Position numbers and translations under genes: made by a program. Shown here one piece after another: positions 9,241 to 55,129 of a stretch of 64,000 nt of DNA. Positions within the stretch are counted from its first letter, which is position 1. Each line of letters opens with the position of its first letter. The DNA comes from Deltaproteobacteria bacterium HGW-Deltaproteobacteria-2 (GTDB lineage: Bacteria; Desulfobacterota; Syntrophia; Syntrophales; Smithellaceae). The stretch spans positions 767,738-831,737 of the forward strand of contig PHBC01000001.1 in the NCBI GenBank assembly GCA_002840505.1, written 5' to 3'. The notes below the pieces were generated by a model. That model saw nothing but the letters and a program-made list of their open reading frames with translations, did not search any database and was not told where the DNA came from.

Positions 9241-9318
9241 TTCCCCCTTTCTTAAAGGGGGATTGAAGGGGATTTTTTTATTAAATCCTCCCCGACCCTC
9301 CTTTAAAAAAGGAGGGCA
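9241..9318. repeat. two-hairpin palindromic element (REPIN/MITE-like)
   Basis: Two G/C-run hairpins in inverted arrangement lie between the cusB-like and cusA-like genes. The left hairpin pairs CCCCCTTT (9243-9250) with AAAGGGGG (9254-9261). The right pairs CCCTCCTTT (9296-9304) with AAAGGAGGG (9308-9316). Inside them are the linkers ATTGAAGGGGATTT and AAATCCTCCCCGACC, themselves imperfect inverted copies around a short T-rich spacer. The order hairpin-linker-spacer-inverted linker-hairpin is the same as around the DUF559 gene at 51.4-51.8 kb, but without a gene. It may also affect read-through into the downstream pump gene. Confidence 0.8.
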
Positions 9319-15324: not shown

Positions 15325-15392
15325 TCATCCTCTCCCCTCAAGGGAGGTGAACTTTTCCCTCCCCTGGCGGGAGGGATGAAAGGGAGGGGGTA
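15325..15392. repeat. GGGAGGG-type double-hairpin repeat
   Basis: Lies between cysK and metX. The first hairpin is TCTCCC (15331-15336) with GGGAGG (15342-15347) around loop CTCAA. The second is TCCCTCCC (15356-15363) with GGGAGGGA (15369-15376) around loop CTGGC, followed by TGAAAGGGAGGGGG. It is the same sequence class as the inverted repeats flanking the DUF559 gene at 51.4-51.8 kb and related to the element at 9.24 kb. Part of it supplies the A/G-rich sequence just ahead of metX. Confidence 0.75.
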
Positions 15393-49929: not shown

Positions 49930-51351
49930 CTACTTCATTTCCATGCAGAACTTGTCAATCGTCTCCGGCGGCGCAATAGGATAATTGCCGGTATAGCAGG
50001 CAAGGCAAAAACAATCTTTGTTCAGGCCTGTTGCCCTGATCATGCCCTCTATGGACAGGTAGTGAATGGAATCCAGGCCGATGAAATCGGCAATGGCTTT
50101 TTCGTTTTCTTTTTTCGCCGCGATGAGCTCACCTTTGGATGAAAAATCAATACCGTACGGACAGGGATAAACTGTTGGCGGGCAGCTGACCGCCATATGC
50201 AGTTCTTTTATTCCGATGCTGCGCAGATTTTTTACACGGTTGCGGCTGGTTGTGCCGCGGATGATGGAGTCTTCCACAATCATCACTTTTTTACCCTCAA
50301 GAATGGCTCTGACCGGATTCAACTTTACCCTGACACCGAAATCGCGCATGGGCTGCGATGGCTGAATAAAAGTACGTCCGATATAATGATTGCGAATCAT
50401 GCCCATTTCAAAAGGATAGCCGCTTTCTTCCGCGTAACCCAGAGCGGCGTAAACGCCGGAGTCCGGAAAGGGCATGACAAGATCTACCTCCGGTTTGTAT
50501 TCACGAGCCAGTTCATGCCCCAGACGCTTGCGGCACATATAAACATTCTGACGGAAAATCTGGCTGTCGGGACGGGCAAAATAAATTAACTCGAAAATGC
50601 AGTGACAATGCTTAATTTCCGGGAAAGGATGGATGCTTCTGACACCCTTCCCGTCTATAATCAAAACTTCACCTGGTTCGACATCACGCACATATTCGGC
50701 GCCGACCAGATCAAAAGCGCATGTTTCCGAAGCGACAACCCAACTGCCGTTTAATTTTCCCAGTGCCAGAGGCCGGAAACCACGCGGGTCACGCGCGGCA
50801 ATTATCTTATCCCGAGTCATTATGATGAAGCAGTACGCGCCCTCCAGACGGGAAAGAGCGGCAGCCAATGCTTTTTCCAATCCTTTTTTCATGTGGTGCG
50901 CCATACGATGAACAACTACCTCGCTGTCCATCGTTGATTGAAAAATAGAGCCGCTATCTTCCAACTCTTTGCGCAGCTTGTTAGCGTTGAGTATATTGCC
51001 GTTATGCGCCAGTGCGTAATAATCACCGGCAAAATGAACCAGGAACGGCTGGGCGTTGGAAATGGTGGAAGAACCGGTGGTAGAATAGCGAACATGGCCG
51101 ATGGCCAGTTTTCCGGGAAGTTTTTTCAGGTGCTCTTCCTTGAATACCTCGGCAGCCAGCCCCATGCCCTTGTGCTCCCAGACGTTGCAGCCGTCGGAAC
51201 TGACAATGCCCGCTGATTCCTGACCGCGATGCTGTAAAGCAAAAAGCCCATAGAAAGCCACGCGGGAAGCTTCTTCGTGATCGTAAATGGCAAAAATGCC
51301 GCATTCTTCCCGGGGACGACCGGATTCCTCTAAATTGTTACTGACATGCAT
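49930..51351 (-). CDS. purF: amidophosphoribosyltransferase
   Basis: A 473-residue enzyme for the first step of purine synthesis (PRPP + glutamine to phosphoribosylamine). N-terminal Ntn-hydrolase domain with a short propeptide ahead of the catalytic Cys in PREECGIFAIYD, and FALQHRGQESAGI. PRPP-binding loop VMIVEDSIIRGTTS. Cysteines in CHCIFEL, VYPCPYG and CFCLACYTG match the [4Fe-4S]-containing Bacillus-type enzyme, which is oxygen-sensitive and suits an anaerobe. On the same strand as carB, but 565 bp away with the DUF559 element between them. Confidence 0.96.
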   Translation of the reverse strand: MHVSNNLEESGRPREECGIFAIYDHEEASRVAFYGLFALQHRGQESAGIVSSDGCNVWEHKGMGLAAEVFKEEHLKKLPGKLAIGHVRYSTTGSSTISNAQPFLVHFAGDYYALAHNGNILNANKLRKELEDSGSIFQSTMDSEVVVHRMAHHMKKGLEKALAAALSRLEGAYCFIIMTRDKIIAARDPRGFRPLALGKLNGSWVVASETCAFDLVGAEYVRDVEPGEVLIIDGKGVRSIHPFPEIKHCHCIFELIYFARPDSQIFRQNVYMCRKRLGHELAREYKPEVDLVMPFPDSGVYAALGYAEESGYPFEMGMIRNHYIGRTFIQPSQPMRDFGVRVKLNPVRAILEGKKVMIVEDSIIRGTTSRNRVKNLRSIGIKELHMAVSCPPTVYPCPYGIDFSSKGELIAAKKENEKAIADFIGLDSIHYLSIEGMIRATGLNKDCFCLACYTGNYPIAPPETIDKFCMEMK

Positions 51352-51394: not shown

Positions 51395-51833
51395 GAGTAT
51401 TTCTAAAATTTCCCCGCCCTCGACGGGAGGGGATTAAGGGGCGGGTGATAAACAACTCTCCCTTATAACTTCCAATACTCCATTTATATTTTGCAAAACT
51501 TCATTATTCCAAAATCTCAATACTTTAAATTCTTGTCGTCTAAGATATGTATCTCTTGCGATATCATCTTCGCTTTGTGTTGCATGTTGGCCACCGTCTA
51601 CTTCAATAACAATCCTTTTTTCAAAACAAACAAAATCAACGATATAATTATCAATGGGCTGTTGCCTTCTGAATTTGAATCCTTCAATTTGCTTTAGTCG
51701 CAATTGTTTCCAAAGTAATTTTTCTGCATCTGTCGGTCTTTTTCTAAGTACTTTTCCCAAGGCAGTCATTTTATCCAAGGTATAATCACCCTCCCCTCGC
51801 CCCTCCCGTCAAGGGAGGGGAAGATTAGAACTC
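51395..51833. mobile_element. DUF559 endonuclease gene flanked by inverted hairpin repeats
   Basis: Left repeat 51395-51447: GAGTAT, A/T stretch, hairpin CCCCGCCC (51412-51419)/GGGAGGGG (51425-51432), then GATTAAGGGGCGGGTG pointing inward. Right repeat 51787-51833 is its inverted counterpart: CACCCTCCCCTCGC inward, then hairpin CCCCTCCC (51800-51807)/GGGAGGGG (51813-51820), AAGATTAGAACTC outward. The loops TCGAC and GTCAA (reverse TTGAC) correspond. A single DUF559 gene fills the interior, its 3' end running into the left repeat. It lies between purF and carB. No target-site duplication was identified by eye. Element behaviour is inferred from this architecture and from the gene-less element at 9241-9318. 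Confidence 0.65.
51434..51778 (-). CDS. DUF559 (Vsr/restriction-endonuclease-like) protein
   Basis: A 114-residue single-domain nuclease-like protein of the DUF559 family, related to very-short-patch-repair endonucleases. Conserved parts: LRKRPTDAEKLLWKQLR, FKFRRQQPIDNYIVDFVC and the catalytic-type IEVDGGQH (PD-(D/E)xK-like Asp in IVDF, Glu and Asp in IEVDGG), then RRQEFKVLRFWNNEVL. All look intact. The last residues (CLSPAP) are encoded inside the flanking palindrome. Alone between repeats, with no methylase or other restriction partner nearby. A role in nicking or moving the palindromes is a hypothesis. Confidence 0.88.
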   Translation of the reverse strand: MDKMTALGKVLRKRPTDAEKLLWKQLRLKQIEGFKFRRQQPIDNYIVDFVCFEKRIVIEVDGGQHATQSEDDIARDTYLRRQEFKVLRFWNNEVLQNINGVLEVIRESCLSPAP

Positions 51834-51916: not shown

Positions 51917-54900
51917 TCACTTTTGATATTCCTGCAATGAACAAACCTGCCAATCATCTTTTTTTATTGCCGCTACCGCTTCGCACAATGCGCGCGCGCC
52001 TGCAATGGTCGTGGTGTAAAGAATATTATAAGTAAGCGCGCCTCTTCTTATGTGATAAGCGTCCCGCGATGATTTACGTCCGATACTGGTATTAATCACC
52101 ATCTGGATGTCGCCGTTTTTAATGTAGTCCACAATGTTCGGACGCCCCTCGCTTAATTTGAAAACAACCCCGGCACCAACGCCGTGTTCCACCAGGTACA
52201 GGGCTGTGCCCTTGGTCGCTAATATCTTGAAACCCATTTTCTGAAAAGTTTTGGCTACCGTTACAATCTTATCTTTGTGAGAATCATTGACGCTGATAAA
52301 AATGGTCCCCTCCGTCGGCATTTTAAATCCCGCCGCCATTTGCGATTTGGCAAAGGCCAGGCCGAAAGAACGGTCTATGCCCATGACTTCGCCGGTGGAT
52401 TTCATTTCCGGCCCCAGCAGGATATCCACATCGGGAAAACGATTAAAGGGAAAGACGGCTTCTTTGACGGAAACATGCTTAGGCTCCGGCGCTTTAGTAA
52501 ACCCAAGTTCTTTTAAAGATTTGCCCAGCATTACTTTGGTAGCGAGCTTGGCTAGCGGCACGCCGATGGCTTTGCTGACAAAAGGAATGGTGCGCGACGC
52601 GCGTGGGTTGACTTCCAGCACGTATAATTTGTCGTTCTTGATGGCGTACTGAATATTCATCAGCCCGACAACATTTAATTCCTGTGCCAGCATTTTTGTC
52701 TGCTTTTTAATCAAATCCAGAAGCGGAGCGGAAATGGTCATGGGCGGCAGCATGCAGGCGCTGTCGCCCGAATGGATTCCTGCTTCTTCGATATGTTCCA
52801 TAATTCCGGCCACAACAGTCATCTTTCCATCGCTGATGGCGTCCACATCTATTTCTATGGCGTCCTCTAAAAATTTATCAATAAGAATGGGGTGCCCGGG
52901 AGAAACAAGAAGGGCTTTGGCCATAAAGCCGCGTAGAGTTTCCGCGTCATAGACAATTTCCATAGAACGGCCACCCAATACATAGGAGGGGCGCACCAGC
53001 ACCGGATAGCCAATGCGTTCGGCTGCCACAAGTGCTTTTTCCGCATCCATTGCCGTGTCATTATCCGGTTGGTTAAGTTTTAATTTGGTGACGATTTCCT
53101 GAAAGCGGTCGCGATTTTCCGCGCGGTCAATGGAATCGGGCGATGTTCCCATTATTTTTATTCCGGCCGCTTCCAGTCCTCTGGCTAAATTAAGAGGTGT
53201 CTGGCCGCCGAATTGAGCTATCACTCCTTCAGGTTTTTCCGTTTGCAGGATGTGTAAAACATCTTCCAGCGTCACCGGTTCGAAAAACAGTTTGTCGGAT
53301 GTGTCGTAATCTGTGCTGACCGTTTCGGGATTGGAATTGATCATGATGCTCTCGACACCTTCTTCACGCAAGGCAAACGAAGCATGGACGCAACAGTAAT
53401 CGAATTCGATTCCCTGACCGATGCGGTTAGGTCCGCCACCGATAATCGCCACTTTTCTTTTCGTCGAAGGCCTGGTTTCGTTTTCTGTTTCATAGGTGGA
53501 ATAGTAATAAGGCGTGTAGGCTTCGAATTCCGCCGCACAGGTATCGACAAGCTTATATACCGGGATAATTTTTTCTTTTTCTCGCCACTGGCGAATCTCC
53601 GTCTCCGTCATTTTCCAAAAAGTTGCCAGCGCCCTGTCGGCAAAGCCCATTTTCTTGGCAGCTTCGAGCAACTCCACGGACGGAGCGGAATTTTTCAACT
53701 CATCTTCGGCATCCACAATTTCTTTGACCTGATGCAAAAACCAGGGATCTATTTTTGTTAATTGATAGAGTTCATCTATCGACATTCCGCCTTGCATCGC
53801 CGCAGCAATGTAGAAAATCCGCAACGAATTGGGTTTGATCAGTTTGCTTTTAAGAAATTCTTTTTTATCTTTCAAATCATCCGGCAGAGACTGGCCAAGA
53901 CTAAAACGCCCGATTTCCAGAGAACGAATCGCCTTTTGCAGGGACTCTTTGAAAGTACGGCCGATAGCCATAGTCTCGCCGACGGATTTCATGGAGGTAG
54001 TTAAAAAATCTTCGGCTTGCGGAAATTTTTCAAACGTCCAACGCGGAATTTTCACGACGCAATAATCTATTGTCGGCTCAAAAGCAGCCATCGTCTCGCG
54101 GGTAATGTCGTTGGGGATTTCGTCCAGTGTGTAGCCGACAGCAAGTTTCGCGGCAATTTTGGCAATGGGAAAGCCTGTGGCTTTTGAGGCTAGCGCCGAT
54201 GATCGCGAAACACGGGGATTCATTTCGACGACAATCATTTCACCCGTTTGGGGATGTATAGCAAACTGAACATTGGAGCCGCCTGTTTCCACGCCAATTT
54301 CGCGCATGATGGCGATGGCGGCGTCGCGCATGATTTGATATTCCTTATCCGTCAATGTCTGCGCAGGCGCGACGGTTATGGATTCTCCGGTATGCACTCC
54401 CATTGCGTCGAAATTTTCAATGGAACAAATAATGACGACGTTATCAGCCTTGTCGCGCATTACTTCCAGTTCGTATTCTTTCCAGCCCAAAACCGATTCC
54501 TCGATCATGACCTCCGAAATCATGCTGGCATCCAAACCGCCTTTGGCTACGTCCATTAATTCTTCACGGTTATAAGCGACGCCACTGCCGGTACCGCCCA
54601 GGGTAAAGGACGGACGAATAATAAGGGGGAAGCCTATTTCATCGGCAATCTTTAAAACATCGCTCATGGAATGGGCAAAGCCGCTTTTGGGCACACGCAG
54701 ACCGATTTTTTCTATCGCGTGCCGGAATTTTTCCCTGTCTTCCGCTTTATGAATAACATCGAGTGACGCCCCGATCATTTCCACATTATATTTTTTCAGC
54801 ACGCCGCTTTCGGCCAGCGCCACGGCCGTGTTCAAACCAGTTTGCCCGCCCAGGGTGGGAAGCAGAGCGTCCGGCCGCTCGCGGGCGATAATTTTTTCCA

Positions 54901-55129
54901 CCGCTTCCGGTGTTATTGGTTCGATGTAGGTTCTATCGGCCGTTTCCGGATCGGTCATAATTGTGGCCGGATTGCTATTGATTAAAACAACCTCATAACC
55001 CTCTTCGCGCAGAGCCTTACAGGCCTGGGTTCCTGAGTAGTCAAATTCGCAGGCCTGACTGATAATAATAGGACCGGACCCGATGAGTAGAATTTTCTTT
55101 ATGTCTTTACGTTTAGGCACTTCAAACAA
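51917..55129 (-). CDS. carB: carbamoyl-phosphate synthase large subunit
   Basis: A 1,070-residue enzyme with two homologous ATP-grasp synthetase halves. The first opens with [23 protein letters not shown] (read at its ends), the second has [21 protein letters not shown] (read at its ends). [17 protein letters not shown] and [17 protein letters not shown] are the paired metal-binding loops. The C-terminal allosteric MGS-like domain (about residues 935-1070) is present. Makes carbamoyl phosphate for arginine and pyrimidines. It normally follows carA directly; here guaA and a 263-bp gap intervene. Confidence 0.97.

Follow-up and report, generated by a model that had tools for sequence, protein, structure and literature searches.

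Widespread and tied to genome instability, the BoxC/PIT/TM repeats have been known for decades. They are reportedly the intrastrand-triplex repeats of Hoyne and Maher. To our knowledge, no agent that spreads them has been identified so far. In-frame palindromic insertions in protein genes, as found in the element described here, are also known from the Rickettsia palindromic elements, for which we know of neither a nuclease gene nor a triplex mirror arm. In Escherichia coli, triplex folding of the BoxC/PIT/TM motif has been examined by CD or NMR, the units showed neither promoter nor terminator activity, and the inverted pairs of strain K-12 always combine a TTA-linker type with a CCG-linker type (PMC4666352). 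TM sites were further reported as unstable regions, around which mobility genes were never found (Holder et al., 2015; PMC4666352).

The element analysed here lies in a stretch of 64,000 nucleotides from the genome of Deltaproteobacteria bacterium HGW-Deltaproteobacteria-2 (the whole stretch is called the window below) and comprises a DUF559 gene between two inverted hairpin units. In published work on BoxC/PIT/TM repeats no mobility gene appears, whereas here the units consistently bracket DUF559. With RAYT/REPIN systems the element shares a gene of nuclease type that is paired with cognate inverted hairpins, as well as gene-less inverted pairs. However, its predicted product has the Vsr/EDxHD nuclease fold rather than that of the HUH Y1 transposase (TnpA-REP), its palindromes are of the triplex type and appear in frame in essential genes, and across whole genomes the repeats depend only weakly on the gene. 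Among solved folds, that of the EDxHD homing endonuclease I-Bth0305I comes closest after the DUF559 structure itself, and EDxHD homing genes similarly show mobile-gene behaviour and have conserved genes among their hosts. In contrast to these, the present element occupies many unrelated sites and has paired hairpin ends, no intron or intein was found in the window element, and the window protein of 114 amino acids lacks the long DNA-binding tail of I-Bth0305I. The Vsr fold is also held in common, and VsrA is itself a DUF559 protein; yet Vsr repairs T:G mismatches beside Dcm, whereas the window gene is bracketed by repeats and has no adjoining cytosine methyltransferase among the ORFs of the window. 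Unlike MITEs and insertion sequences, the window element has no transposase, and target-site duplications were not seen by eye at the hemB and purF sites described below. On the best reading, the element resembles a RAYT/REPIN system or a homing gene in outline, yet is a member of neither.

The features of the locus, and of two gene-less sites in the same window, are given in Table 1. As the initial annotation had claimed, the DUF559 gene is enclosed by inverted units with their hairpins outward and their G-rich parts inward, and the coding region extends into one of them, the stop codon falling within the 3' unit. Each unit consists of a C-rich arm, a loop, a complementary G-rich arm, a 3-nt linker and a mirrored repeat of that G-rich arm; the 5' hairpin has a folding energy of -9.4 kcal/mol as single-stranded DNA. 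Since the third part mirrors the G-rich arm, both units are potential intrastrand triplexes, in which a single strand could fold as a hairpin and a third purine strand could join the purine arm in antiparallel orientation. This plan (Y arm, loop, R arm, linker of about 3 nt, mirror R arm) is that of the BoxC/PIT/TM repeats, which also form inverted pairs in E. coli; judged by their letters, the window units are members of this known family, and the earlier view that the unit is peculiar to this gene falls away. A reading as terminators or RNA elements was rejected on the presence of units inside ORFs and on an Rfam search without a match of note.

Table 1. Features of the DUF559 locus and of gene-less units in the window
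Feature	Position	Strand	Sequence or description	Basis or remark
Whole element	51409..51822	-	5' unit, DUF559 gene and 3' unit, in the carB-purF spacer	letters read directly
DUF559 (PF04480) putative nuclease gene	51434..51778	-	predicted Vsr/EDxHD fold, 114 aa, TTG start	ORF
5' unit (gene-relative)	51789..51820	-	CCCCTCCC-TTGAC-GGGAGGGG-CGA-GGGGAGGG-TGA	hairpin plus mirror arm
3' unit (gene-relative)	51411..51445	+	TTTCCCCGCCC (also given as TCCCCGCCC)-TCGAC-GGGAGGGGA-TTA-AGGGGCGGG-TGA	
purF	49930..51351	-	amidophosphoribosyltransferase	conserved neighbour defining the site
carB	51917..55129	-	carbamoyl-phosphate synthase large subunit	conserved neighbour, opposite side
Gene-less convergent pair	9242..9316	.	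TCCCCCTT...AAGGGGGA + CCCTCCTT...AAGGAGGG	MITE/REPIN-like; fold z = -3.6 (single strand)
Good unit beside a degenerate divergent hairpin	15325..15388	.	TCCCTCCC-CTGGC-GGGAGGGA-TGAA-AGGGAGGG	good unit at 15356-15388 (+)

The identification of the enzyme as Vsr-like, and not a Y1 transposase, was upheld. The window protein matches PF04480 over residues 3-108 with 137.6 bits (cut-off 20.6); DUF559 and MTES_1575 were the sole Pfam matches in the window element, which contains neither an HUH Y1 transposase (TnpA-REP) nor any other transposase by this search. Plain membership among the RAYT/REPIN systems was rejected for the absence of the Y1 transposase. An AlphaFold model (50 sequences, pLDDT 90) is closest among PDB folds to 3hrl (NGO0050), followed by 3r3p (the homing endonuclease I-Bth0305I; E 5.9e-5, TM 0.65/0.75) and 1cw0 (Vsr; E 0.014, prob 1.00). 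Residues D48, E59, D61, G62, H65, D72 and R75 are invariant across the 50 sequences, and the homologous YcjD was earlier placed in the PD-(D/E)XK superfamily as a relative of Vsr (PMC1189080). Nuclease activity, as predicted from the model, is plausible for the DUF559 protein.

The proposed correlation of DUF559 genes with these hairpins was examined at 80 DUF559 loci picked by protein similarity alone, using a strict finder of arm-loop-arm-linker-mirror units in which a convergent pair within 150 bp counts as a bracket. Convergent brackets were present at 35 of the 80 loci and any unit at 59, against 4 (0.017%) and about 373 (1.6%), respectively, of 24,000 control windows (Fisher p about 1e-86); these controls are random windows from the same contigs rather than other genes or gene families. 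When the 21 strict-finder negatives were read by eye, most proved to have the hairpin after all, either with another one inside its linker or with shorter stems. A wider finder, with linkers of up to 34 nt and divergent pairs admitted, bracketed 59 of the 80 loci (50 convergent and 9 divergent) and placed a unit at 74, the control values being 0.02% for convergent pairs and 1.9% for any unit; since it was devised after the negatives had been read, the unbiased estimates are those of the strict finder. The commonest linker length was 3 nt (100 of about 190 units). A replicate set of 27 loci, picked within the phylum with the Pfam model and searched with the strict finder, contained 16 convergent brackets and 24 loci with any unit, while the corresponding controls gave 0/8100 and 2.5%.

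In the genome of the window, all three DUF559 genes have hairpins on both sides by eye; the third (L003) has different stems, and the strict finder scores only one of its sides. Most of the full-length DUF559 genes in 40 relatives are bracketed, and low-scoring partial matches are mostly unbracketed. Units are almost never present at the distant Vsr-like genes (30-42% identity) of viral contigs, which argues that bracketing is not general to Vsr-like genes. Spread by phages found little in its favour, as only two phage records match, neither of them annotated, and the viral-contig relatives are mostly without units. Confinement to the genus of the window was ruled out, since the association spans more than 12 phyla; the isolate genomes that show it include Flavobacterium, Gillisia, Variovorax, Deinococcus and E. 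coli.

In other phyla, the DUF559 domain occurs within long ORFs, including those for LeuRS, IleRS, ValRS, MetH, PriA, HsdM, hydantoinase B and others. Solved structures of homologues, which contain neither DUF559 nor the units, served as uninserted references and were aligned to the host proteins. Relative to the Thermus enzyme, a ValRS (L113) has residues 406-593 as an extra segment at position 366, the remainder being collinear; similarly, residues 447-603 of an IleRS (L088) are extra between positions 367 and 368 of a eukaryotic enzyme. Extra segments of this kind are also present in LeuRS, a second IleRS, MetH and PriA, which are otherwise collinear with solved structures. In both L113 and L088, translated triplex units (e.g. 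SPLPPGEGSGVRGE) lie close to the two edges of the extra segment, and the insertion boundary falls as much as about 40 bp beyond the hairpins, so that the hairpins are not always the exact ends of the element. The units are free of stop codons in the frames used, and in-gene insertions would thus be tolerated as Pro/Gly-rich linkers. Several of the genomes with in-gene insertions are those of isolates (Flavobacterium, Gillisia and Aequorivita), which argues against assembly error.

Sister-site comparison within the genus revealed filled, decayed and empty states at two junctions, so the gene is accessory rather than ancestral and fixed. At the hemB/radical-SAM junction, the gene and its units are present in G000, G001, G003 and G010, a pseudogene in G014 and lone-unit remnants in G009, G011 and G012, while G005, G013, G015 and G016 have clean empty sites. 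The block in G000 begins and ends at its units, and its flanks are nearly as long as the empty spacer. At the carB-purF junction, the element occurs in the genome of the window and in G008, a degenerate lone unit remains in G015, and the element is absent from about ten other relatives with a readable junction. A different repeat (GACGACCTCGTAAAAAGTCCATATGC...GCGCGCCTTGCCTCTGG...) was observed in the carB-purF spacer of several relatives, upstream of purF (L176, L185, L192 and L193).

Multiple copies were found in genome G240, where nine DUF559 matches and 88 E. coli-type units were counted. When stretches of 3.3 kb are compared, several of these copies correspond over 449-485 bp (about 450-490 bp), with homology ending close to the ends of the element and unrelated flanks beyond; being 72-89% identical, they are not recent. 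On two Deinococcus plasmids (L270 and L271), the DUF559 gene is found at two different positions of the same hpa cluster. With these comparisons taken together, it is very likely that the gene and its units move as a block, and the sequences show a block that enters many unrelated sites, including essential genes in frame, decays in place and spreads horizontally. A DUF559 copy in L325 contains an extra lone hairpin unit inside the gene (1513-1545), which is missing from aligned relatives and suggests that a lone unit may insert too. On plasmid L271, inverted repeats reach about 13 bp past the hairpins.

The E. coli gene ycjD is polymorphic (L034 and L262-L266): of 5426 genomes, 3364 cover a sapF-ycjD query to 80% or more. 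In those strains lacking ycjD that were read, an efflux operon stands beside sapF. As this operon replaces the gene, the locus was rejected as a clean empty-site test. The 3' triplex unit of ycjD is intact in strain L265 and degenerate in K-12.

The DUF559 tree is discordant with host phylum, and Thermodesulfobacteriota, Nitrospirota, Myxococcota and Planctomycetota are intermixed as near neighbours; the shortness of the domain leaves many forks without resolution. End orientation (convergent or divergent) changed four times on this tree, compared with 8.6 times after shuffling, and none of 500 shuffles gave so low a number. Protein identity also correlates with stem similarity (rho 0.44, Mantel p 0.0005), and paralogues within one genome each retain the stem type typical of the clade they belong to. 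Stem sequence and orientation, as read from these alignments, follow the clade of the DUF559 gene, and the ends have diversified together with it. The mirror register of the third arm fits better than the direct register; covariation of the mirror arm was given no weight, since hairpins with other linker lengths dilute the signal.

Other genomic copies of the unit were found as had been anticipated, the CCCTCCC type occurring 11 times in the genome of the window by pattern search, on which all counts for this genome rest, and its reversed control pattern giving 0 matches in 40 genomes. The two gene-less elements noted earlier in the window agreed with the proposal in part. The one placed at about 9241-9318 does contain two convergent hairpins, whose stems, however, differ in sub-type from those at the DUF559 gene. 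The related element at 15325-15392 is a looser match than claimed, because its one good unit has a degenerate and divergent partner. Convergent gene-less hetero-pairs (TCCCCCTT type with CCCTCCTT type) recur often in the genus with spacers of mostly 12-25 bp (L115-L174), and are a defined, putatively miniature, element of the genus.

Genome-wide dependence of the repeats on the gene was assessed across the phylum in 247 genomes. Units of E. coli type were present in 40 of 55 genomes with DUF559 and in 42 of 192 without it, an odds ratio of 9.5, much of which arises because units at the DUF559 gene itself were counted. After two units per gene were subtracted, the comparison became 19/55 against 42/192 (p = 0.024, uncorrected for relatedness), and a within-family permutation of DUF559 against units elsewhere was not significant (p = 0.32). 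Many genomes contain 10-21 units and no DUF559 gene. Within the genus, genomes whose gene is flanked by the CCCTCCC type contain 2-11 further copies and the others 0-4 (Mann-Whitney p = 0.001, relatedness uncorrected). Since the corrected comparison is weak, RAYT-like upkeep of all repeats by DUF559 is not established, and REPIN-like dependence is weakly supported. The endonuclease-REPIN system of the initial annotation is thus retained as to the cognate inverted palindromes that bracket the gene in its own genome, in relatives and in many phyla, and as to the gene-less pairs with short, fairly uniform spacers, but not as to genome-wide dependence. A better picture than a REPIN-like system is that of a mobile element with a nuclease gene, triplex-hairpin ends and gene-less relatives.

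The locus is likely to be one copy of a mobile element of about 0.4-0.5 kb, formed by a DUF559 nuclease gene with inverted BoxC/PIT/TM triplex-hairpin ends. The nuclease would recognise the folded hairpin or triplex ends, probably when these are single-stranded in replication, and would nick or cut there, upon which host repair or recombination could copy the block, or only the pair of ends, to a new site. Gene-less convergent pairs would then be non-autonomous derivatives, comparable to REPINs or MITEs. That the nuclease is required for movement of the block is on balance favoured; that it acts on the hairpin ends and not on the target is a more tentative proposal, falling a little short of an even call.

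The main rival is a homing-type process, in which the nuclease cuts the target and double-strand-break repair copies the block, the hairpins serving as boundaries or for tolerance (as in-frame linkers or repair blocks) and not as the substrate. Insertions into aminoacyl-tRNA synthetases, MetH and PriA do recall the hosts of homing endonucleases, and the closest folds after NGO0050 are those of the EDxHD homing endonuclease I-Bth0305I and of Vsr. However, copies at unrelated sites, both within one genome and across phyla, are not site-specific, no intron or intein accompanies them, and target cutting alone does not explain the covariation of stem and nuclease. Homing of this type is therefore considered unlikely. 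Alternatively, the hairpins may be independent repeats or recombination hot spots between which DUF559 genes were captured as passengers. The frequency of units in genomes without the gene (42/192) and the reported instability of TM sites (PMC4666352) speak for such capture, yet most DUF559 genes are bracketed in matched convergent orientation by stems that track the gene clade, and the solved homologues of host genes have neither part; we regard capture as improbable. More doubtful still is an ordinary Vsr-like mismatch-repair or defence nuclease with the hairpins as regulatory or terminator elements of its gene. Weak PADLOC similarities and the DNA damage caused by VsrA of Caulobacter once its partner methyltransferase is lost (PMC12907096) point in this direction, but units also lie far from the gene and within ORFs, those of E. 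coli lack promoter and terminator activity (PMC4666352), and the window gene does not adjoin a cytosine methyltransferase. Chance or assembly artefact can be dismissed for practical purposes, for although many loci come from metagenome-assembled genomes and G-rich hairpins are of low complexity, isolates (Flavobacterium, Gillisia, Variovorax, Deinococcus and E. coli) are alike and nearly nil counts in control windows and reversed patterns refute it.

With the mobile element as the preferred reading, DUF559 genes with BoxC/PIT/TM hairpins would, somewhat more probably than otherwise, constitute an unrecognised class of bacterial mobile element, in which a Vsr-fold nuclease moves DNA with triplex-hairpin ends, inserts in frame in essential genes and seeds triplex repeats (found in more than 260 genomes), E. 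coli ycjD being a surviving member. Titles, abstracts and targeted searches of the open-access literature yielded no published link between DUF559 and BoxC/PIT/TM repeats. If true, the proposal would give a role to the large DUF559 family of 'unknown function' nucleases and would describe a mobile element that has no DDE, HUH, serine or tyrosine transposase and that survives in essential genes as a translated linker. The DUF559 element is a possible source of BoxC/PIT/TM hairpin repeats, and its phylum-wide link with them makes the question of their spread directly testable, for example with E. coli ycjD.

The family also occurs in another setting. On cyanobacterial plasmids of Synechocystis B12 and Picosynechococcus PCC 7002, DUF559 adjoins DUF1156 and DUF499 (L272, 2316-3435; L275, 2968-6336), a group which may possibly represent a defence cluster.
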